Virus record (IMG/VR): IMGVR_UViG_3300025120_000659
Location: 1 to 21,557 of that record
DNA from: a virus
Strand: one strand, 5' to 3'
DNA: 21,557 nt
Shown: in pieces, positions 2,484 through 21,557 of the stretch
Numbering within the stretch: the first letter of the stretch is position 1
Layout: each line of letters opens with the position of its first letter
The notes under the pieces: generated by a model
Seen by the model: the letters and a program-made list of their open reading frames with translations, nothing else
What the model was told of the DNA's origin: nothing
Databases searched by the model: none
Made by a program: the position numbers and the translations under genes

Positions 2484-2708
2484 ATGGATCAGTCTAAGTG
2501 GAAGTCAGTTGTTGTGCCTCGGGAAACCTACCACGACATGAAACTTATCGCCCAGATCGAAGGGCGTACCATCTCACGACAGCTACGCATGATCGTCGAT
2601 CAGTGGAAAGACGACCACCTGACCGACAACGATTTGCAAAAGCTGGAAACGGAAAAGATTAAACTGGAAGTGGAATCAGGCGCTCACGCTACTAGCTTTT
2701 CGATCTGA
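2484..2708 (+). CDS. Ribbon-helix-helix (Arc/CopG-like) DNA-binding protein
   Basis: A 74-aa protein. Residues about 7-43 fit the ribbon-helix-helix pattern: a short beta strand (KSVVVPRETY), helix A (HDMKLIAQIEG), a turn RTIS and helix B (RQLRMIVDQW). The C-terminal half is a charged helix. Such proteins are dimeric repressors that read the major groove with the strand; in phages they are often early regulators. A strong AAAGGAGG lies 6 nt before the ATG. A weak promoter (TTGTTT, 15 nt, TATAAA at 2433-2459) may drive it. Its 3' end overlaps the convergent helix-turn-helix gene by 33 nt. The target operator is unknown. Confidence 0.75.
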   Translation: MDQSKWKSVVVPRETYHDMKLIAQIEGRTISRQLRMIVDQWKDDHLTDNDLQKLETEKIKLEVESGAHATSFSI

Positions 2709-2861
2709 GGCTCGTCGCCCACGGTACAACCAATCCCGCACCGTATCGATAGGTATGTTGAGGGTCTTTGCAATCCACGCTACCGACCGCTCCTCGTTGT
2801 TACGAAGATGGATAACGTGATCTACGACTTCTTGGGAATATTTTTTAGCGACCATACACAT
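2676..2861 (-). CDS. Small helix-turn-helix protein
   Basis: A 61-aa minus-strand protein of the homeodomain-like or transposase-type helix-turn-helix kind: helix 1 (SQEVVDHVIHLRNN), helix 2 (SVAWIAKTLN) and recognition helix (IPIDTVRDWLYRGR). The compact pattern and basic end support a DNA-binding role. Two starts are close together, ATG at 2859-2861 and 2853-2855; the first is used. Only a weak AGGG precedes it. A TGATATCAC box (minus strand, complement of about 2880-2888) could be an extended -10. It converges on and overlaps the ribbon-helix-helix gene by 33 nt, so each transcript is antisense to the end of the other. A transposase remnant is possible, but the gene is full for a single-domain protein. 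Confidence 0.6.
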   Translation of the reverse strand: MCMVAKKYSQEVVDHVIHLRNNEERSVAWIAKTLNIPIDTVRDWLYRGRRASDRKASSVSA

Positions 2862-2892
2862 AGTTTACCCTGAAAAAAATGTGATATCAACC

Positions 2893-2920
2893 TTGACTAC
2901 CAGGCGAACGGCGCTATACT
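2893..2920 (+). promoter_or_regulatory. Sigma70-type promoter of candidate small RNA
   Basis: TTGACT (2893-2898), a 16-nt spacer and TATACT (2915-2920) make one of the best promoter matches in the window. Transcription would begin near 2926-2928. The next downstream signal is a strong intrinsic terminator only about 30 nt on, with no start codon and open frame between them, so the product is a short RNA. Confidence 0.7.
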
Positions 2921-2924
2921 GAAC

Positions 2925-2997
2925 ATCCAAGTTAGCTCCTTGGGTTAAGTTGAAAGAAGCTCACTGGGGTTTATCCCCTCTCAGTGGGCTTTTTTTA
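2925..2997 (+). ncRNA. Candidate trans-acting small RNA, antisense to phage leader sequences
   Basis: The unit between promoter and terminator would give an RNA of about 70 nt. Hairpin 1 has stem CCAAG (2927-2931) with CTTGG (2939-2943) and the 7-nt loop TTAGCTC. A linker (2944-2957) follows, then the terminator hairpin. The segment GTTAGCTCCTTGGGTTAAG (2931-2949) is the reverse complement of the leader seen before several genes here (CTTAA box, then AGGAGCTAAC). Continuous pairing would be 10 bp at 6104-6113, 9 bp at 7043-7051, 8411-8419, 3129-3137 and 5065-5073, each covering the ribosome binding site. On the minus strand the same bases read as a leader followed by ATG and a 9-codon frame, so an inverted leader relic is the main alternative. 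Confidence 0.55.
2958..2997 (+). terminator. Strong intrinsic terminator of the candidate small RNA
   Basis: AGCTCACTG (2958-2966) pairs with CAGTGGGCT (2982-2990) with one G-T pair. An inner GGG/CCC extends the stem, and a run of seven T follows (2990-2996). It ends transcription from the promoter at 2893-2920. Confidence 0.85.
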
Positions 2998-3040
2998 TTT
3001 TCGAGCAAGGGCATTTAGTCATCCCCTTCTCAGCGGTTCC

Positions 3041-3100: not shown

Positions 3101-3137
3101 TGATATCATGTTGATTCCAACAACTTATAAGGAGCTA
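3101..3137 (+). promoter_or_regulatory. Extended -10 promoter and AAGGAGCTA leader of the 3140 gene
   Basis: TGATATCAT (3101-3109) is an extended -10 type box; no good -35 is seen. It is followed by CTTATAAGGAGCTACT up to the ATG at 3140. This is a variant of the leader shared by the accessory-block genes, here with CTTATA in place of CTTAAC. Confidence 0.45.
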
Positions 3138-3139
3138 CT

Positions 3140-3382
3140 ATGTACATAGGTAAAAACGACGGGGTATGCCCCATCTCCCAAGCAGAAATCGACCGCGACA
3201 AACCCGAGATCCGCGAATACGAAGTAGATCCCGATGCCGCCTACGACGCCGAACAATCACGGCTCATCGCCCATGACCAAGAGGCCATCTCCAAGATCCT
3301 GGTAGAAAACATCCATGCGACCAAGGATTTGGTAGATGAACTCGTCGAGTATGTGCGAAAGGCACGCCGGGGGTTGGTGTGA
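3140..3382 (+). CDS. Hypothetical acidic protein
   Basis: An 80-aa protein that I do not recognise. It is acidic (many Asp and Glu in residues 15-45) with a predicted helical second half (HDQEAISKILVENIHATKDLVDELVEYVRKARRG, quoted only to show the heptad-like pattern in parts: ISKILV, LVDELVEYV). Neither membrane segments nor cysteine pairs are present. AAGGAGCTA stands directly before the ATG. The stop overlaps the start of the alpha-CTD-like gene by 4 nt (GTGTGAAA region), so the two are probably co-translated and may act together. Confidence 0.7.
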   Translation: MYIGKNDGVCPISQAEIDRDKPEIREYEVDPDAAYDAEQSRLIAHDQEAISKILVENIHATKDLVDELVEYVRKARRGLV

Positions 3383-3837
3383 AATACGAACTGGACGAAG
3401 ACGCCGTTGCGGTACTTTTAGAGTATGTCGAAGAAGCTCTCGTTGAGATTGCCGAGGTTTTGGACGGGCCTCAACACCAAGAGGGCCTCAACTGGACTAC
3501 CTCTGGTATGCACATGGGTCGCGCACCGCGTTTTGCTTTAAACAAACAAAGAAAAACTCTTGTAGATATGCGCCGTGCGTTACGCAACCCTATTAGGTGT
3601 AAAGACGATGTCTTGGCATGGCCCTTGGAAAAGCTTGGATGCAGCCAGAGAATCTTAAATGCCTTGAGAAATAAATGTTATCAGACAGAAGATCACAGCT
3701 TGGACTTTATTCGCACCGTTGGACAATTAATTGAGATGACCGAGTACGAACTGAGTAAATATCCCGAATTGGGCAAAAAAAGCATAACCGAGATAAAGGA
3801 TTATTTAGCTACCCATGATCTTTACCTATCGGGCTAG
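3379..3837 (+). CDS. Protein with C-terminal RNA polymerase alpha-CTD-like domain
   Basis: A 152-aa protein that starts with GTG. Residues about 81-152 resemble the C-terminal domain of bacterial RNA polymerase alpha: PLEKLGCSQRILNAL, then LIEMTEYELSKYPELGKKS and ITEIKDYLATHDL. The E. coli residues that contact UP-element DNA can be matched: Arg265 (Arg91 here), Asn268 (Asn94), Gly296 (Gly132), Lys298 (Lys134), Ser299 (Ser135) and Glu302 (Glu138). About 10 extra residues lie between the first two helices. The N-terminal 80 residues do not resemble the alpha N-terminal assembly domain and I do not recognise them. The domain can be expected to bind DNA minor groove; a role in redirecting or imitating host polymerase is inference. 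It precedes the repeat-rich region 3838-4107. Confidence 0.75.
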   Translation: MKYELDEDAVAVLLEYVEEALVEIAEVLDGPQHQEGLNWTTSGMHMGRAPRFALNKQRKTLVDMRRALRNPIRCKDDVLAWPLEKLGCSQRILNALRNKCYQTEDHSLDFIRTVGQLIEMTEYELSKYPELGKKSITEIKDYLATHDLYLSG

Positions 3838-5045: not shown

Positions 5046-5073
5046 TTATATGTGTACTTAATTAAAGGAGCTA
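5046..5073 (+). promoter_or_regulatory. Promoter-like box and AAGGAGCTA leader of the 5076 gene
   Basis: TTATAT (5046-5051) is a possible -10, then CTTAATTAAAGGAGCTA (5057-5073) and the ATG at 5076. The CTTAA box and the ribosome binding site have the same 4-nt spacing as in the reverse complement of the candidate small RNA. Confidence 0.4.
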
Positions 5074-5075
5074 TT

Positions 5076-5324
5076 ATGGAAATCGATTTAAATGAAACTG
5101 AAATAAAACTCTTGGTCGGGTTGGTTAAAAGCGCCTATGCGGATGTTAACGAAGCGTTGGATCAATATGACGAATGTGGAGATCCTCTGCGTTTGGGCCA
5201 TTATCCTGCACAAATCTTGTCGAATGAGTTGTCTGTTTTAAGAAAAATGGAGCTGAAGTTAAACCCAATAACTTTTGGGGGACAGGGGCATGGGAAAAAG
5301 CGCATCACAACGGAGGTAGCTTGA
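5076..5324 (+). CDS. Hypothetical protein
   Basis: An 82-aa protein that I do not recognise. It begins MEIDLNETEIKLLVGLVKSA, a helix typical of many short phage proteins, and continues with a second helix-forming part (LSNELSVLRKMELKLN). No cysteine pair suggests metal binding and no membrane segment is seen. The start at 5076 is chosen for the AAAGGAGCTATT leader; the frame is open from 5037 but without a ribosome binding site. Its stop overlaps the ATG of the next small gene (TGATG, 5322-5326), so they form a two-gene unit closed by the terminator at 5436-5462. Confidence 0.7.
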   Translation: MEIDLNETEIKLLVGLVKSAYADVNEALDQYDECGDPLRLGHYPAQILSNELSVLRKMELKLNPITFGGQGHGKKRITTEVA

Positions 5325-6034: not shown

Positions 6035-6056
6035 TTTTTGCTCCTTTTGTTAAGAG

Positions 6057-6086
6057 TTGACAGTATACACATAAAAGCCCTATACT
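6057..6086 (+). promoter_or_regulatory. Promoter of the 6115-6991 genes, overlapping a divergent promoter
   Basis: TTGACA (6057-6062), 18 nt, TATACT (6081-6086); then CTTAATCGATAGGAGCTAAC (6094-6113) and ATG 6115. The whole promoter is overlaid by a minus-strand promoter of identical geometry at 6062-6091. Confidence 0.75.
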
Positions 6087-6091: not shown

Positions 6092-6114
6092 GACTTAATC
6101 GATAGGAGCTAACA

Positions 6115-6384
6115 ATGGCTAATTTTATATGGCATACAGATCCAAGCCACGCTTGGTTAGAAGTAACTCGAAAACACTTAAAAGTTTTAGGAATTCACAA
6201 CAAAGTTTCTAAGTATAGTTATCAATTCGGTGACCGCATTTATTTAGAAGAGGATTGCGACGCGCCTCTTTTTTTTAAGGCAGCAGACTCTGCCGGATTT
6301 ACTGTTAACAGTTTAGCCCTTCCTGAAATACATACTGATAATGAATCTGAGGTAAGAAGCTATGAGAGTTATTCCAATGATTAA
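6115..6384 (+). CDS. Conserved phage hypothetical protein (WHTDPSHAWLEV type)
   Basis: An 89-aa protein. The segment WHTDPSHAWLEVTRKHLK with GDRIYLEEDCDAPLFFKAA is a pattern I know from many short phage proteins (DPxHxWLxV, then YLEEDCDA); no function is established for them as far as I know. Acidic, no membrane part. AGGAGCTAAC lies directly before the ATG; this leader gives the longest (10 bp) match to the candidate small RNA. Its 3' end overlaps the next gene by 23 nt. Confidence 0.75.
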   Translation: MANFIWHTDPSHAWLEVTRKHLKVLGIHNKVSKYSYQFGDRIYLEEDCDAPLFFKAADSAGFTVNSLALPEIHTDNESEVRSYESYSND

Positions 6385-6991
6385 AATCAGTGAAATGACG
6401 GGTAAACTAACAGATATTCCCGCCATCAATACCAACACGCTAACCAATTCATTCTGCACCAAAATGCACGCAAAAAAACATCCTAAGAATATTTGTGGTG
6501 TGTGCTACTCGCAGCGTATGCTCAAAACGTATCGAGCTAATTGTGCTGAGTCCTGGCAAGGAAATTCTGATTTACTAAGTCATTCCATTATCGACGAAGA
6601 AGATCTGCCAGTTATCAATTCGCATTCATTCCGTTTTAATGGGCATGGTGAGCTGATTAATCTTACTCACTATTTCAATATTGTGCGGATATGTAAACGC
6701 AACCCTAATTGCAGCTTTGCATTGTGGACTAAACGATTAGATATCATTAAACGAGCTTTTAATACCATCAATCCGAATGGCATCAAACCGGATAATCTCA
6801 TTTTGATTTACTCGAACCCTCGGGTTGATTCCATTCTCGAACATCCGCCGGAATACTTCGACAAAGTGTTTAATAATACGTCTACCATTTCAGACCAAGA
6901 TAATTGCTCCGGCCGAAAATGCATGGATTGTTTGCAATGCTATCGCACGGACTCCGGCGTCAACGTAATAGTGGAAGCTATAAAGAATTAG
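6362..6991 (+). CDS. GP88-like cysteine-rich phage protein
   Basis: A 209-aa protein. The cysteine pattern is notable: CGVCYS (about 45-50), RICKRNPNCSFALWTKR (108-124) and the cluster CSGRKCMDCLQCY near 182-194. The segment FRFNGHGELIN (about 90-100), followed by ICKRNPNCSFALWTKR, resembles the GP88 family of phage proteins, where a similar order is seen (FRW/FN..G, then a WTxR motif). Function of that family is unknown; the C-terminal cysteines could hold zinc or an iron-sulfur cluster. The start at 6362 follows GAGG by about 9 nt and overlaps the previous gene. The stop TAG is the first part of the next promoter module. Confidence 0.6.
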   Translation: MRVIPMIKISEMTGKLTDIPAINTNTLTNSFCTKMHAKKHPKNICGVCYSQRMLKTYRANCAESWQGNSDLLSHSIIDEEDLPVINSHSFRFNGHGELINLTHYFNIVRICKRNPNCSFALWTKRLDIIKRAFNTINPNGIKPDNLILIYSNPRVDSILEHPPEYFDKVFNNTSTISDQDNCSGRKCMDCLQCYRTDSGVNVIVEAIKN

Positions 6992-7051
6992 GTGTATGTG
7001 ATAAATATGCGGTATACTTGGGTTTCTTAACTAACGACAATTGGAGCTAAC
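6987..7051 (+). promoter_or_regulatory. Promoter and leader module of the methyltransferase gene
   Basis: ATTAGGTGTAT (6987-6997), GATAAATATG, TATACT (7013-7018), CTTAAC (7026-7031) and GGAGCTAAC (7043-7051). It closely matches the module at 8366-8419. The -35 is poor (TAGGTG with an 18-nt spacer). Confidence 0.6.
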
Positions 7052-7054
7052 AAG

Positions 7055-8383
7055 ATGTCATATTCATACTACAAGATTGGTTCAAATCGGAATCGAAAAC
7101 GTATCTTTCTGGAAGCTAATTTAGAGGTCGCGGGTTTTAATTGCGGAGATCCGTATAAACGGGTGAACGATGTCGAATCTGGGATTATCACCTTGTTTCG
7201 TCTTGAGGAATCGGAATCGCTTCCCAGTGATAGACGGGTGACGAAAGGCAAACGAAAAGGTCACGACCGCCCAATTATCGATTTATGCGACAAGACAATT
7301 GAAGAAGTATTCGGGAATACTGAGAGGGTTCGAGTAAGTTTTTTACGCCATAAGATAATCATTGAAATACACCCGGAAGAATTTAATAAATCCAAGAGAG
7401 AAGAATCCTTCAAGGACAATATGAAAACGGGTGAATTAACGCACGCCAGTTTATTTACTGGTGGCGGCATTTCCACAGATGCAATTCATTGTGCGCTTGA
7501 TGAAGACGGCTTGATAGCCGAGGGCGCCAAATGGGTTTGCGAAGCAGATTTGAAATATATTGAAGAAGCTAAACAACATTGTCTGGCTGTCACGGATGAG
7601 ACAGTAATCATCAACGGCTTGGTCGAAGAGGTCGAGCCAAATCTTTTTACGAGCGTAAATATTTTGAGCTTGTCGATGGAGTGCGCCGGATTTAGTAAGG
7701 CGGGTGTGGTCAAGCATAAAAAATCCGCCGAAGAGCATAGCGGCACAGCATTGTTTGGTGTCGTAAATGCAATCCGAAATGCAAATCCCGCCATTGTTAT
7801 TTCCGAGAATGTGTTGGAGGCTAAACGGAGCAGTATTTATGCGCTGTTAACAAGTGAATTGAATCGACTCGGTTATAAAATATTCGAGCTTGAATTGTCG
7901 AATGAGCATACCGGCAGTATAGAAAAGCGCCGTCGTTATTGGATGGTGGCTATTAGTGAAAACCTAGCACCGGAATGCATCGAGCTTCCATTAGTCGAGC
8001 AAAATCAAAATCCGCTTAATTCCTTTTTACAAGAGGTTGAAGAATCGGTCTGGGGTGAAAACCAATACTTGAAAGACAAATCTATTAGAGACGCGGCAGC
8101 GGGTAAAGGGTTTGCAAAACGTCAGCTTTTATCTGGCGACGAAACCAATGTTGGGACAATTGGTCGTCATTATGCGAAGCGCAGATCAACCGAACCTTTC
8201 ATAGTTCGGGCCGATGGTAAAGAACGATTGTTAACACCGGTTGAGCACGCGATTGTTAAATCAATTCCGACTCGATTAGTGCCGGATGGAGGTATTACAC
8301 TCGCGCATCAAATTTTGGGACAGTCGGTTGATTATCTGCAACCCTATAAGTTAATGCAGAACGTGATTAGGTGTATCGGATAA
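7055..8383 (+). CDS. C5-type DNA cytosine methyltransferase, divergent motif IV
   Basis: A 442-aa protein. Residues 1-130 form an N-terminal extension (KGKRKG and other basic parts). Motif I is ASLFTGGGISTDAI (131-144) for S-adenosylmethionine; motif IV is SMECAGFSKAG (207-217) with catalytic Cys210; motif VI is ENV (251-253); motif VIII is KRRRYWMVAI (291-300). The C-terminal part RLLTPVEHAIVKSIP and AHQILGQSVDYL corresponds to motifs IX-X. The usual Pro before the catalytic Cys is Glu209. The protein would methylate cytosine at C5, probably to protect phage DNA from host restriction; no restriction enzyme is next to it. The target sequence cannot be read from the protein. It has its own promoter, and the next promoter begins inside its last codons. 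Confidence 0.8.
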   Translation: MSYSYYKIGSNRNRKRIFLEANLEVAGFNCGDPYKRVNDVESGIITLFRLEESESLPSDRRVTKGKRKGHDRPIIDLCDKTIEEVFGNTERVRVSFLRHKIIIEIHPEEFNKSKREESFKDNMKTGELTHASLFTGGGISTDAIHCALDEDGLIAEGAKWVCEADLKYIEEAKQHCLAVTDETVIINGLVEEVEPNLFTSVNILSLSMECAGFSKAGVVKHKKSAEEHSGTALFGVVNAIRNANPAIVISENVLEAKRSSIYALLTSELNRLGYKIFELELSNEHTGSIEKRRRYWMVAISENLAPECIELPLVEQNQNPLNSFLQEVEESVWGENQYLKDKSIRDAAAGKGFAKRQLLSGDETNVGTIGRHYAKRRSTEPFIVRADGKERLLTPVEHAIVKSIPTRLVPDGGITLAHQILGQSVDYLQPYKLMQNVIRCIG

Positions 8384-8419
8384 ATATGGGTTATACTGGT
8401 GTTTCTTAACAGGAGCTAA
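8366..8419 (+). promoter_or_regulatory. Promoter and leader module of the 8422 gene
   Basis: ATTAGGTGTAT, GATAAATATG, TATACT (8392-8397), CTTAAC (8405-8410) and AGGAGCTAA (8411-8419). The first 18 bases are also coding for the end of the methyltransferase, whereas in the sister module at 6987 they begin at the stop codon. Confidence 0.6.
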
Positions 8420-8421
8420 TT

Positions 8422-8943
8422 ATGGATATTGATAAATACAGATGGGAGACACCAGACTCATACGGAGGATTTAATCCGGTAGGCGATATTGTCGTTTATT
8501 CTCGAAATCGGGATAGCTCGATTTTAGAGGAAAGTAATTACGAGCAGATTTTTAAACATCTAAAAGAGACGATTAAAAATTTGGATAGCCCTATTTATAT
8601 CGAAGATGATGAGAGAAGTGAATTCGATTGGGTATACGATTTTCGCGCTGGCCATTGGGCGTGTGGATGGGTTGAATATATCTTGGTTCGTAAAGATGCA
8701 CCGCAGTCGGTTATCGATGCCGCCGTCGAAGTAATCGATGGAATTGAAGACTATTGTATTTTTGACGAATCGCATTATTCAGAAATGCAATGGGAAGCTA
8801 CCGAAACATTCTGGCAAGAATGTTCTATTGCTGATCGGGTGCATTATTGTAAGGAAATGGAAGTATCTATTTTTGCTGCACGCCGTGATTATACGCCCGA
8901 ATCGAATAATCCTCTGAGCGAATATGTGGATTTTCTGCACTAA
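8422..8943 (+). CDS. Conserved phage hypothetical protein (HWACGWVE type)
   Basis: A 173-aa acidic protein. The segment YSRNRDSSILEESNYEQIFK and the core FRAGHWACGWVEYILVRKDA (about 75-94) follow a pattern I know from widespread phage proteins of unknown function, with HWACGWVE as the hallmark; DYCIFDESHYSEMQWEATE follows. No catalytic set is evident. It is transcribed from its own leader module and is followed by a structured gene-free stretch. Confidence 0.7.
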   Translation: MDIDKYRWETPDSYGGFNPVGDIVVYSRNRDSSILEESNYEQIFKHLKETIKNLDSPIYIEDDERSEFDWVYDFRAGHWACGWVEYILVRKDAPQSVIDAAVEVIDGIEDYCIFDESHYSEMQWEATETFWQECSIADRVHYCKEMEVSIFAARRDYTPESNNPLSEYVDFLH

Positions 8944-9074: not shown

Positions 9075-9098
9075 AAACCCCGCTATTTGGCGGGGTTT
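9075..9098 (+). terminator. Hairpin terminator
   Basis: AAACCCCGC (9075-9083) pairs perfectly with GCGGGGTTT (9090-9098), loop TATTTG. The following T run is short (TTTGTGT), and the -35 of the next promoter begins inside its 3' arm. Confidence 0.6.
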
Positions 9099-9149
9099 GT
9101 GTATACGATAAATGAGTGTATAATGGAATCTCAACTTAACTGATAGGAG
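9097..9149 (+). promoter_or_regulatory. Promoter and leader module of the 9157 gene
   Basis: TTGTGT (9097-9102), 16 nt, TATAAT (9119-9124), then CTCAACTTAACTGATAGGAG (9130-9149). The last part is nearly identical to the leader of the 9630 gene. Confidence 0.65.
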
Positions 9150-9156
9150 ATTTACC

Positions 9157-9480
9157 ATGTTAGACACTTTTGAAACCCAAGCATACGCGCAGGTCTGGAC
9201 TTCATCATTGAATCGATATATTGAAGAAGGTCGTGAAATGAACGACTCGGATATCAGTTTGTATTCCGGCGGATTGCCGGAAGATTACTCAGAACATTAC
9301 ACGTATATTCCGGTCGGGAAAATCAAGGTCAAGATACCCACCCAAGAACAGCGACACCAAACTGAGCTTGCAGCATTAGAGCTTGAAATTACCCGCCATG
9401 ATGAGCGGTCGCAGGAACATCGAGAGCGATTGCTAGAGCGCCGCTCCCAATTGTTAGCTTTGCCCCATCTGGCAGAGTGA
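9157..9480 (+). CDS. Hypothetical protein with C-terminal coiled coil
   Basis: A 107-aa protein I do not recognise. Residues 1-60 are mixed and acidic (YSGGLPEDYSEHYTYIPVGK). Residues about 62-105 form a long charged helix with heptad-like leucines (ELAALELEITRHDERSQEHR, then ERLLERRSQLLALPHL), so a coiled-coil dimer is likely. It is a single-gene unit with its own promoter and terminator (9486-9511). Confidence 0.7.
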   Translation: MLDTFETQAYAQVWTSSLNRYIEEGREMNDSDISLYSGGLPEDYSEHYTYIPVGKIKVKIPTQEQRHQTELAALELEITRHDERSQEHRERLLERRSQLLALPHLAE

Positions 9481-9567: not shown

Positions 9568-9620
9568 TTGGTATATGTGCTTGATATGTGTATAATTAGG
9601 GTTCAACTTAACTGATAGGA
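9568..9620 (+). promoter_or_regulatory. Promoter and leader module of the 9630 gene
   Basis: TTGGTA (9568-9573), 17 nt, TATAAT (9591-9596), then TTCAACTTAACTGATAGGAG. The best -35/-10 pair among the leader modules. Confidence 0.75.
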
Positions 9621-9629
9621 GCGCGACCG

Positions 9630-10037
9630 ATGGAATTAGTAAAGGACACGACGAAAGACGATCTTCGTAGAATGTGCAAGTCAATGCTCGACGAAGTTTG
9701 CGACGGGATTTTGCTCACGGAAGAGAATATAGAAGAATGGGCAGTGCATGATATTCCCGATATGGTGGTGGTGGGCGAGTATTTGCCCTGTCACGAGTGG
9801 ATATCTCGAAACGTCTATTCTGAGCGGTATTTGATTGACAGCGATGGCGAATTAATCGAAGTGCAGATGATGGTGGCGGGTGGTGGGCCCACTATCTGGG
9901 TTCATTGTTCGGCCAACTCTGTCGAGGTTCACGGGTATTGGGGTGGTGACCACGTAAGACAAAATGCCCTCATTGAGGACGGGATGGGAATCTGGGATTA
10001 TTATAGCGAAATGCCAAGGTTTCGGAGGGATTACTAA
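9630..10037 (+). CDS. Conserved phage hypothetical protein (GGPTIWVH type)
   Basis: A 135-aa protein. The central segment VAGGGPTIWVHCSANSVEVH with GYWGGDHVRQNALIEDG resembles a phage protein type I remember by its GGPxIxV and GYWGxD signature, with no known function. The N-terminal part is helical and acidic; there is no membrane segment. Promoter, CTTAAC box and AGGAG lie directly upstream. The stop overlaps the ATG of a small membrane protein (TAATG), so they form an operon ended by the terminator at 10210-10235. Confidence 0.7.
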   Translation: MELVKDTTKDDLRRMCKSMLDEVCDGILLTEENIEEWAVHDIPDMVVVGEYLPCHEWISRNVYSERYLIDSDGELIEVQMMVAGGGPTIWVHCSANSVEVHGYWGGDHVRQNALIEDGMGIWDYYSEMPRFRRDY

Positions 10038-19137: not shown

Positions 19138-19791
19138 ATGGCAAATCAAGAAACAGCCTATGGCCTACGTCCTATTGGTATGGTGGGAAGCGGCGCAAAT
19201 TCAACTGGTATTACAGAATATGAATTAGCCAATAACGACACTAACGTCATTTTTAATGGTGAAATTGTTGTTCCACTTGCTACAGGATTTATAGGTCAAG
19301 CCGGTGCTACAAACGGCGGTACAACTCAAGCATTAGGCGTGCTTACTGGAGTTATGTACCATGATGCAACTCAAAAGAAGCCTGTGTGGCTTAATTACTG
19401 GCCCGGTTCGGGCGGTGTAAGTGTGGACACAAACCATCCTGTCCGTGCTTATGTTGCTGATAACCCAAACCAGTTGTTCCAAATAGCTTCCGATGCAAGC
19501 ACAACAGACCGAGCAACTGCTCAAGGTCTTGTTTTCGCTAACACGGACCTGGGAACGTCGGCTCGTACTGGGTCAACAGACACAGGGTCATCTACTTCTC
19601 AAATGAGTGTGGCTAATGCAGCAGTAACTGCAACGCTTCCACTTCGTATTGTTGGGTTGGTAGACGATGTTGCAAATAGCGACTACACCGTAGCGGGTAT
19701 CCCGTTTGTGGTGCGGTTAAATGCTCACTTTAACGCTGGAACCCGTAGTTTTGATTCTCAAACTACTGCGGATTCTACCGGACTTAACTAA
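19138..19791 (+). CDS. Putative virion structural protein (possible capsid decoration)
   Basis: A 217-aa protein, rich in Thr, Ser, Ala, Gly and Asn with few charges, hence a beta-rich secreted-type or virion composition. It opens ETAYGLRPIGMVGSGANSTG, a start typical of structural proteins beside the major capsid gene in many marine phages. A Ser/Thr-rich loop (ARTGSTDTGSSTSQM) lies near residue 142-156. Lying just before the major capsid protein it is a candidate decoration or stabilising protein; that role is inference. TAGGAG precedes the ATG. Confidence 0.7.
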   Translation: MANQETAYGLRPIGMVGSGANSTGITEYELANNDTNVIFNGEIVVPLATGFIGQAGATNGGTTQALGVLTGVMYHDATQKKPVWLNYWPGSGGVSVDTNHPVRAYVADNPNQLFQIASDASTTDRATAQGLVFANTDLGTSARTGSTDTGSSTSQMSVANAAVTATLPLRIVGLVDDVANSDYTVAGIPFVVRLNAHFNAGTRSFDSQTTADSTGLN

Positions 19792-19802
19792 GGAGGCTGA
19801 TT

Positions 19803-20708
19803 ATGACTATTTCTCGCGCTCAATTAGCGAAGGAACTAGAACCCGGCCTGAATGCCTTATTTGGGTTGGAGTATGACCGGTACGAAGATGAAGCCGCAGA
19901 GATTTTTTCTGCTGAAAGCTCTGACCGAGCTTTTGAAGAGGAAGTAATGCTTTCTGGCTTTGGAACTGCACCGGTTAAAAGCGAAGGTAGTGCAATTAAT
20001 TTTGATGACGCGCAGGAAACTTATACTGCACGTTACACAATGGAAACGATTGCTCTAGCTTTCTCTATAACTGAAGAAGCTGTAGAAGACAATTTGTACG
20101 ACAAGTTAGCTACTCGCTACACCCGTGCATTGGCTCGATCTATGGCTCAAACTCGACAAATTAAAGGGGCTACGGTTTTAAACAATGCGTTTTTAGCTAC
20201 TTCTCCTATTGGCGATGGGGCTGCACTTTGTTCAGCCGCTCACCCAAGTTTGTCTGGTAATCAACGGAACCTTTTACAGACTCCTGCTGATTTGAACGAA
20301 ACGTCTCTTGAGGACATTTTAATTCAAATTGCTGGATTTACTGATGAAAGAGGCTTAAAGATTGCCGTTCGTGGTACTAAGTTAATGATTCCTAAAGAAC
20401 TTCAGTTTATTGCTGAAAGAATTATTAACTCTAACCTGCGTCCTGGTACAGCCGATAATGACATAAACGCAATGAAATCAATGGGAATGCTCCCTGAAGG
20501 CGCGGTTGTAAACCACTTCTTCACTGATGCCGATGCGTATTTTGTTAAAACCGACTGTCCAAATGGTTTTAAAGTCTTCAACAGAACGCCTTTAACTACA
20601 GGCACTGAAGGAGATTTTGACACGGGTAACCTACGATTCAAGGCTCGTGAAAGATACGCTTTTGGCGTTTCTGATTGGCGTTGTGTCTATGGAACACCGG
20701 GCGCATAA
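19803..20708 (+). CDS. Major capsid protein
   Basis: A 301-aa protein. It begins MTISRAQLAKELEPGLNALF and has the course of a HK97-fold capsid subunit: an N-terminal helix, an extended region (FGTAPVKSEGSAINFDDAQE), a central helix (LARSMAQTRQIKGATVLNNA), and the C-terminal FKARERYAFGVSDWRCVYG. Related major capsid proteins of uncultured phages have the same start and ending, and the gpT-like head subunit group is the closest family I can suggest. TAAGGAGG lies before the ATG. A terminator follows the gene, consistent with very high expression that is cut off behind it. Confidence 0.88.
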   Translation: MTISRAQLAKELEPGLNALFGLEYDRYEDEAAEIFSAESSDRAFEEEVMLSGFGTAPVKSEGSAINFDDAQETYTARYTMETIALAFSITEEAVEDNLYDKLATRYTRALARSMAQTRQIKGATVLNNAFLATSPIGDGAALCSAAHPSLSGNQRNLLQTPADLNETSLEDILIQIAGFTDERGLKIAVRGTKLMIPKELQFIAERIINSNLRPGTADNDINAMKSMGMLPEGAVVNHFFTDADAYFVKTDCPNGFKVFNRTPLTTGTEGDFDTGNLRFKARERYAFGVSDWRCVYGTPGA

Positions 20709-20771: not shown

Positions 20772-20832
20772 AAGTACGTTACCTGACTATTGCATCCCGC
20801 AGTAGACACTAGCCACGACAGGAGAACACTAC

Positions 20833-21557
20833 ATGGCTACTCATTTTAAAGGCCCGATTCTTTATTCGGCAGCCCAGAAAGGGCTGGAAAATTTAAACAT
20901 AGGCGTATGGCCTGATCAATGTTCCAAATGGGACGACTTTGTTGATGAACTAGACACTGGCTGGACTGTTGTAAAAGACAGTGGAGCAACGGTAGCTATT
21001 GCGGCAGACGTGGCTAACGGAGTATTGGTCATTACTTCTGCGGCAACGACAGACAACGATGGTGGATCTATCCAAGCCAACGAAATTTTTCGATTGCCTA
21101 ATGTACAAGGCGAAATGGTTTATTTTGAAACAAGGATCTATGTAGACAGCACCTCTGGTTCAGGTGTTGGTCAAATGGATGCTTTTTGGGGAATGTGCGA
21201 AAACTTTGCTACTAATCCCGAAGCTGGCTTTGCAGCGTCTAATCGTATTGGTTTTCAAATGGATGACGGAAGCTCTAGTCTTCGATTGATTACTGAGAGT
21301 GGAGACACTGAGACAGAAACTGTCTTGACAAGCACTCACGACTTGACTGACGGAACTTTCGTTACATTAGGCTTTACTGCAACCAAAGGTAAACTTACTG
21401 GCGGAACTGAAGTAGTTAAATTCTTTGTAGATAAGCAGTTGGTAGGTACTCATACCGCGAATGTACCCACTGCAAACATCACTCCAGCGATTATATCGGT
21501 TAGTGGAGATGCTACGGGAACCAAAAGCATGGGCGTAGACTATGTTTTGGCAGCGCA
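20833..21557 (+). CDS. Putative structural protein, beta-sandwich type, cut by the window end
   Basis: 241 codons are visible and the frame is still open at the right edge. It begins MATHFKGPILYSAAQKGLEN. The sequence is rich in Thr, Gly, Ala and Asp with alternating hydrophobic residues (VYFETRIYVDSTSGSG, NRIGFQMDDGSSSLRL, VVKFFVDKQLVG), which suggests a concanavalin-like jelly roll; proteins of this start are known to me beside capsid genes in uncultured phages. A head fibre or surface-binding role is possible. ACAGGAGAA lies about 8 nt before the ATG. It has its own promoter, unlike the upstream head genes. Confidence 0.7.
   Translation, partial: MATHFKGPILYSAAQKGLENLNIGVWPDQCSKWDDFVDELDTGWTVVKDSGATVAIAADVANGVLVITSAATTDNDGGSIQANEIFRLPNVQGEMVYFETRIYVDSTSGSGVGQMDAFWGMCENFATNPEAGFAASNRIGFQMDDGSSSLRLITESGDTETETVLTSTHDLTDGTFVTLGFTATKGKLTGGTEVVKFFVDKQLVGTHTANVPTANITPAIISVSGDATGTKSMGVDYVLAA

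Follow-up and report, generated by a model that had tools for sequence, protein, structure and literature searches.

Organization of the RNA locus

A short noncoding locus is flanked at one end by a 74-aa gene with a divergent HTH-like gene and at the other end by an 80-aa gene (3140), in a window that comprises the whole linear IMG/VR virus record IMGVR_UViG_3300025120_000659 (21,557 bases). Its features are as follows (groups A to E are defined below):

2484-2708, plus strand: 74-aa gene, a synteny marker 5' of the RNA in groups A-D
2676-2861, minus strand: 61-aa HTH-like gene, next to the RNA promoter and divergent from it, with a match to Sigma70_r4_2 (E = 2e-4) below the Pfam cut-off
2893-2920, plus strand: sigma-70-type promoter of the RNA, TTGACT-16-TATACT; -35 and -10 retained in group B, TTGACA..TATTAT in group C
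2926-2996, plus strand: predicted small antisense RNA, its start placed from the -10 box and its end from the terminator
2927-2943, plus strand: 5' hairpin CCAAG-TTAGCTC-CTTGG (17 nt), with stem covariation
2944-2954, plus strand: second antisense box GTTAAGTTGAA, the reverse complement of the leader box TTCAACTTAAC
2958-2996, plus strand: intrinsic terminator of the RNA, from the predicted fold, with seven T at 2990-2996

A sequence-only reading of this DNA had proposed a promoter of the type TTGACT, 16 nt, TATACT, followed by a terminator with no gene between them, and both elements are present. The promoter matches 10 of the 12 consensus positions; the number of such promoter-like sites in the window shows no excess over shuffles. 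The 3' hairpin runs into the seven T, and the interval is free of ORFs: no ORF of at least 40 aa was found on the plus strand in 2920-3000, and no ATG in 2926-2997. The terminator was not detected by a standard terminator scan, because its loop and bulge lie beyond the limits of that scan. The predicted transcript of about 70 nt has an MFE fold of -30.7 kcal/mol (z = -4.2; none of 200 shuffles was as low), and no Rfam family scored above its gathering cut-off at the locus. As would be expected of a trans-acting sRNA, this is a free-standing noncoding gene with its own promoter and intrinsic terminator, and it is conserved in relatives.

The loop of the 5' hairpin (2932-2938) forms the putative seed against GAGCTAA in the leaders. 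The CCAAG/CTTGG hairpin with loop TTAGCTC, also part of the sequence-only reading, exists but is only one of two competing 5' folds in the window copy. In the MFE structure of that copy UUAGCUC is paired with GGGUUAA, which hides the loop and counts against the model, whereas the CCAAG/CUUGG hairpin is the MFE structure in group B and an equivalent hairpin is that of one group E copy.

Concerning the neighbouring genes, the start of the HTH-like gene (2840-2865, minus strand) is situated about 7 nt past a -10-like TAAACT; its mRNA may be leaderless and thus beyond the reach of the RNA. The gene at 3379-3837, also adjoining the RNA, encodes a 152-aa protein that matches the RNA polymerase alpha C-terminal domain (PF03118, E = 2e-11), which is unusual for a phage.

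Leaders complementary to the RNA

Bases 2931-2949 are the reverse complement of CTTAACCCAAGGAGCTAAC, as had been read from the sequence, and the perfect pairing runs given there hold at their full length: 10 at 6104-6113, and 9 each at 7043-7051, 8411-8419, 3129-3137 and 5065-5073. The second box (2944-2954), only partly noticed before, is longer and pairs perfectly with TTCAACTTAAC at 9602-9612 (11) and with TCAACTTAAC at 9131-9140 (10). The following leaders are involved:

3119-3139, plus strand: target leader of the 80-aa gene 3140-3382, with AAGGAGCTA at 3129-3137
5056-5075, plus strand: target leader of gene 5076-5324, with a CTTAA box and AAGGAGCTA at 5065-5073
6040-6060, minus strand: probable target leader, with both boxes (TCAACTCTTAACAAAAGGAGC), of the 71-aa gene 6034-5819 on the same strand
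6094-6113, plus strand: target leader of gene 6115-6384, with CTTAAT at 6094-6099 and AGGAGCTAAC at 6104-6113
7026-7051, plus strand: target leader of the C5 cytosine DNA methylase gene 7055-8383, with CTTAAC at 7026-7031 and GGAGCTAAC at 7043-7051
8405-8419, plus strand: target leader of gene 8422-8943, with CTTAAC and AGGAGCTAA
9131-9149, plus strand: target leader of gene 9157-9480, with TCAACTTAAC at 9131-9140 and AGGAG
9602-9622, plus strand: target leader of gene 9630-10037, with TTCAACTTAAC at 9602-9612 and AGGAGC

The RNA is antisense to nearly the entire consensus leader TTCAACTTAACTGATAGGAGCTAA, apart from a short mismatch mid-way. In genes 9157 and 9630 the GAGCTA match is weak and the second-box match strong, whereas the opposite is found in genes 3140 and 5076; the strongest duplex energy of all leaders is that of gene 9630 (-30.7). 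In front of genes 9630 and 9157, TTCAACTTAAC and TCAACTTAAC are situated just 3' of -10 boxes, approximately where the mRNAs should begin, and the promoter-proximal leaders are 20-25 nt long if transcription starts 6-8 nt past the -10 box. At least seven target leaders have separate promoters. A gp88-like gene (6362-6991) comes after gene 6115-6384, and no antirepressor was found among the family matches in the window.

The block promoters contain a TATGTGTAT-like motif or have it immediately upstream, and the HTH-like gene has it at its start (2854-2862 on the minus strand, 5049-5057, 6065-6073 on the minus strand, 6989-6997, 8368-8376, 9096-9104 and 9585-9593). With one mismatch allowed there are 12 matches, against 3.9 ± 1.6 expected, and the motif resembles an operator or activator site common to the genes of this regulon. 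It is absent from the promoter of the RNA itself, and RNA and targets are therefore probably timed differently; a shut-off of the accessory genes by the RNA would be one example of such timing.

Outside the accessory block, the leader of the capsid gene (19771-19802, GGACTTAACTAAGGAGGCTG) pairs strongly with the RNA (-26 kcal/mol), unlike the leaders of the other structural genes. Here ACTTAACTAAGGAGG overlaps the end of the gene preceding 19803, and the box is also found in L130 (group C), but not in L128. The capsid gene is possibly a late target, or the match possibly arose by chance. Just 3' of this gene (19803-20708, capsid by homology), an Rfam match to the Mu-gpT-DE RNA is situated at 20781-20835 (RF03012, 53.2 bits, E = 6e-10); by eye, it is also present in L128 and L130.

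Significance of the complementarity

For the seven promoter-proximal leaders of the accessory block, duplex energies were compared with those of shuffled RNAs (400 trials per shuffle type). The observed mean was -24.2 kcal/mol. Dinucleotide shuffles of the RNA had a mean of -10.8 ± 1.6, and shuffles in which CTCCTT was kept fixed had one of -13.5 ± 2.1; in both cases none of the 400 trials reached the observed value. The same test was also significant in the relatives L128, L214 and L132. Leaders of structural and upstream genes gave -14.2, like the shuffles keeping only the anti-SD core; part of the pairing is explained by the anti-SD sequence alone.

When the cost of opening both molecules was subtracted (structure-aware cofolding), the block leaders had a mean of -13.5, compared with -2.6 and -3.2 for the controls. 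Ranked in this way, the top nine of the 39 SD-bearing starts comprise all seven block leaders together with gene 6034 and the capsid gene 19803. The operonic second genes 3379, 6362 and 10037 do not rank among these nine, which agrees with an RNA that acts on the first cistron. All seven leaders are also among the best sites in a scan of every third position on both strands, in which many other high sites are intracoding. A search blind to the RNA, in which over-represented leader words were taken and their complement was sought before a terminator, recovered the RNA in the window and in L127, L132 and L214, together with a few chance-looking matches elsewhere. As in trans-acting sRNAs, imperfect complementarity to distant translation-start regions thus exceeds chance; the complementarity is not accidental, and it is restricted to the accessory leader class.

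The RNA in related phages

The large terminase (TerL) of this marine phage shares 56-62% identity with those of 023Pt_psg01, HTVC027P, DSL-LC04 and HTVC023P. Whole-window megablast against annotated phages gave 0 matches; relatives were collected by TerL protein search and IMG/VR scans. Two published accounts of HTVC023P/HTVC027P-type phages do not mention a small RNA. The A/B-type RNA pattern was absent from the bacterial genome contigs searched, and the TerL search in such contigs found three MAG contigs labelled Verrucomicrobia and Maricaulis, labels that do not amount to a host assignment.

Seventeen syntenic copies of the RNA were found, and four more in L133-type phages; all possess the 5' hairpin, NTAGCTC and the terminator, and the CTCCT core is invariant across all groups. 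Group A consists of the window and a near-identical contig (L002/L208). In group B (L207, L209-L216), CCAAG-TTAGCTC-CTTGG, T(A), GTTAAGTTGAA and the terminator are kept, and the stretch from promoter to hairpin varies. Groups C and D (L217-L223, including L132) have CCAAAGATAGCTCCTTGG, a different terminator and a better promoter, and the GTTAAG box is missing.

In group E (L133-type phages) the leaders are mostly TAGGAGCTAG, and the loop CTAGCTC was therefore predicted before the RNA was found. The L133 contig begins too late to contain the RNA, which is carried by the overlapping contigs L418, L420 and L421 and by the diverged L422 as TTCTAG-CTAGCTC-CTAGAA, followed by a terminator. It is situated somewhat further upstream, ahead of a lipase gene, and its promoter is weak relative to the consensus. 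The ORFs directly 3' of the RNA in L207, L209-L216, L418 and L420-L422 show no evident SD, and they may be translated by read-through or as leaderless ORFs in groups B and E.

In the leader of a small gene of L422 (7660-7690, CTATTACCAAGGAGCTAACTAATG), about 18 nt are complementary to a composite of the group B and C RNAs (GTTAGCTCCTTGGTAATA). The RNA of L422 itself has a loop unlike the one that this leader matches, and the leader is perhaps a relic of an older RNA sequence. In groups B and E, palindromes (GGTTCCACGTGGAACA, TGTTTCACGTGGAACA), which we take to be close to parS (ParB) sites, are found ahead of small genes in the vicinity of the RNA, namely upstream of a 112-116-aa gene in L207/L214 and at about 85-110 in L133.

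In distant relatives with upstream sequence (L138, L142, L170, L172), no such RNA was found at the corresponding place. The intergenic region 1700-1800 of L172 has a strong terminator and several hairpins, with TATCTCCTCAAA in single-stranded form, and leaders of this phage are often TTTGAGGA. This region is possibly an analogous RNA; the candidate, with TATCTCCTCAAA before the terminator, was rejected, as it pairs weakly with its own leaders (only about -9 to -19). Matches to the loose pattern TTAGCTCCT..GTTAAG were mostly due to chance, and the real new finds were four contigs in the same context, two of them near-identical. A scan with the leader pattern returned just the same phage groups and unrelated phages, and a search for relatives through the small basic gene adjoining the RNA had no yield.

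Joint change of loop, leaders and stem

A loop that changes in related phages without a matching change in the leaders had been named beforehand as an observation that would speak against the pairing; in the relatives, loop and leaders changed together, most weakly in group C. In group E the loop TTAGCTC is replaced by CTAGCTC and the leaders by GGAGCTAG (window-type counterpart GGAGCTAA); in group C the loop is ATAGCTC, with GGAGCTAT in three of the four corresponding leaders. The first loop base and the opposite leader base are thus U/A in groups A and B, A/U in C and C/G in E, and the base after GGAGCTA in the leaders is most often A (A/B), U (C) and G (E), respectively.

Of 21 GGAGCTAN leaders, taken from one genome of each group and from L214, 16 match the loop of their own RNA (label permutation, p = 1e-5, a value that overstates the case, since the leaders of any one genome resemble copies of a single module and only three loop states exist). 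The loop-leader covariation rests on few independent evolutionary events.

In every set of leaders, the longest unbroken pairing is obtained with the RNA of the leaders' own group, alone or in a tie, with A and B counted as one. By cofolding, group E is clearly self-specific, its RNA reaching -13.9 on its own leaders as against -9.0 or weaker for the others, and the A/B RNAs are specific with respect to C and E. Perfect swap specificity would be expected, and group C departs from it: its own RNA gives -9.9 on C leaders, whereas the A/B RNAs give -11.5 to -12.1.

In the stem, three of six pairs are changed on both sides between A/B and E, in a comparison of only five sequences. The CTTAA box occurs in six of seven leaders in the window, 2/6 in L214, 6/7 in L128, 0/6 in group C and 0/8 in group E; groups C and E lack the second box in the RNA as well as in the leaders. 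Compensatory change that preserves pairing between RNA and target, as is typical of trans-acting sRNAs, is therefore present with three loop states, of which that of C is the weakest case.

Proposed function and alternative explanations

The sequence elements, the complementarity, the conservation in relatives, the stem covariation and the joint change of loop and leaders are observed features, and the reading that best fits all results is the one first proposed from the sequence, a trans-acting RNA with a loop-presented seed against phage ribosome-binding sites. We consider it quite likely that a phage-encoded trans-acting antisense RNA of about 70 nt represses translation of accessory genes of the same phage. 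That the RNA is transcribed, where it starts and stops, that its effect is repressive, when it acts and whether it depends on Hfq are all matters of inference. The RNA would be driven by its own sigma-70 promoter and ended by the intrinsic terminator; the 7-nt loop (NUAGCUC) of the 5' hairpin would nucleate on GAGCUAN at the Shine-Dalgarno sequence of the leader, and pairing would then extend into the CUUGG arm. In the group of the window, the linker box GUUAAGUUGAA may additionally pair with UUCAACUUAAC at the extreme 5' end of the mRNA, such that the duplex would span almost the whole leader of about 25 nt and block binding of the 30S subunit. Occlusion of 30S is the simplest effect to assume, because the SD, and frequently the 5' end as well, lies within the paired stretch.

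A cis-acting leader or attenuator, whose hairpin and terminator govern read-through into the next gene, appears improbable: an ORF with its ATG directly after the T run of the terminator in groups B and E looks as if read-through or a leaderless start mattered, but groups A and C have no ORF starting there, and the gene 3' of the terminator is not the same in all relatives (a small basic protein in B, a lipase in E). Moreover, the seven distant complementary leaders and the joint change of loop and leaders would be left unexplained. It is quite improbable that the RNA instead stabilises the mRNAs, or that these titrate, as a sponge, an RNA aimed at the host. Pairing is symmetric, so its sign cannot be read from the sequence, and some phage RNAs act on host targets (PMC12197685); against this, the pairing covers the SD in short leaders, which offer little inhibitory fold to melt.

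A general anti-SD decoy, which would mimic the 3' end of 16S rRNA (CUCCUU) and lower all SD-led translation of host and phage, is very improbable. It would agree with the invariant CTCCT core, but shuffles with CTCCTT fixed fall well short of the observed mean (-13.5 ± 2.1 vs -24.2), structural-gene leaders with good SDs are not preferred, and the bases flanking the core covary with one leader class. No more credible is a DNA element without functional RNA (an operator or inverted copy of the promoter-leader module), since, although the leaders form part of a recurrent promoter module that includes the TATGTGTAT motif, so that repeated DNA motifs do exist, this motif is missing from the promoter of the RNA, compensatory stem changes and a retained terminator are expected of an RNA and not of an operator, and unrelated flanks of RNA and leaders in C and E make a recent inverted copy unlikely.

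Translational repression in trans would explain why unrelated accessory genes have one common leader, and it makes targets predictable from sequence alone. The phage would then contain an RNA-run regulon with a legible code of seed and address, which newly acquired genes can join by carrying the leader. A DNA methylase gene and several unknown genes are among the targets, so the timing of such genes could be controlled by the RNA. A further step, which we put forward tentatively and regard as rather doubtful, is that the RNA is a master translational switch for dispersed, interchangeable accessory genes whose leader serves as an 'address', and that loop and addresses drift into partly orthogonal codes between sister phages; such codes are clear for group E versus A/B.

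Comparison with known RNAs

Among bacterial sRNAs, the 'cuckoo' RNAs of alpha-rhizobia and RsaE of Staphylococcus use a CU-rich hairpin loop as a seed against the SDs of several mRNAs. The phage RNA shares with these anti-SD-loop sRNAs the hairpin-loop seed against SD regions of several mRNAs; unlike in them, its loop is supplemented by a second box in groups A and B. The cuckoo/RsaE-type sRNAs are chromosomal and have host targets, whereas the 7-nt loop NUAGCUC of the phage RNA is directed at one phage leader family.

VpdS of phage VP882 and PreS of lambda are phage regulatory RNAs, and VpdS alters phage and host mRNA levels (PMC12197685). In the available text of that source they are said to depend on Hfq and to have targets that include host genes or host sRNAs, and a shared leader class with a co-evolving loop is not reported there. 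The sar RNA of P22 and the lambda RNAs OOP and aQ are antisense RNAs that control phage genes post-transcriptionally, each described in the same text as antisense to a single target gene (ant, cII and Q, respectively); unlike in these, the targets of the present RNA are unlinked, up to 7 kb away, and the pairing is short and imperfect.

The closing remark of the sequence-only reading, that no case with this layout was described, is too strong: the c4 RNA of P1 and P7 has loop sequences complementary to a ribosome-binding site, against one gene. According to PMC12197685, its loop segments pair around the RBS of a phage mRNA and block translation. Like c4, the present RNA is phage-encoded and has a loop-presented sequence complementary to phage RBSs; unlike c4, which targets one mRNA, ant, it is one free-standing RNA facing at least seven separate leaders. 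The Rfam C4 covariance model gave no match up to E = 1 in the whole window and up to E = 5 at the locus. If the doubtful orthogonal-code reading were true, a co-infecting relative could have its accessory genes silenced, or left alone, by the RNA of the other phage, as in c4 heteroimmunity but for several genes at once. Known phage antisense RNAs acting on phage genes mostly concern one gene each. A trans-acting antisense RNA of a phage is of a kind already known, and what would be new here is the multi-gene phage regulon together with the co-evolving seed.
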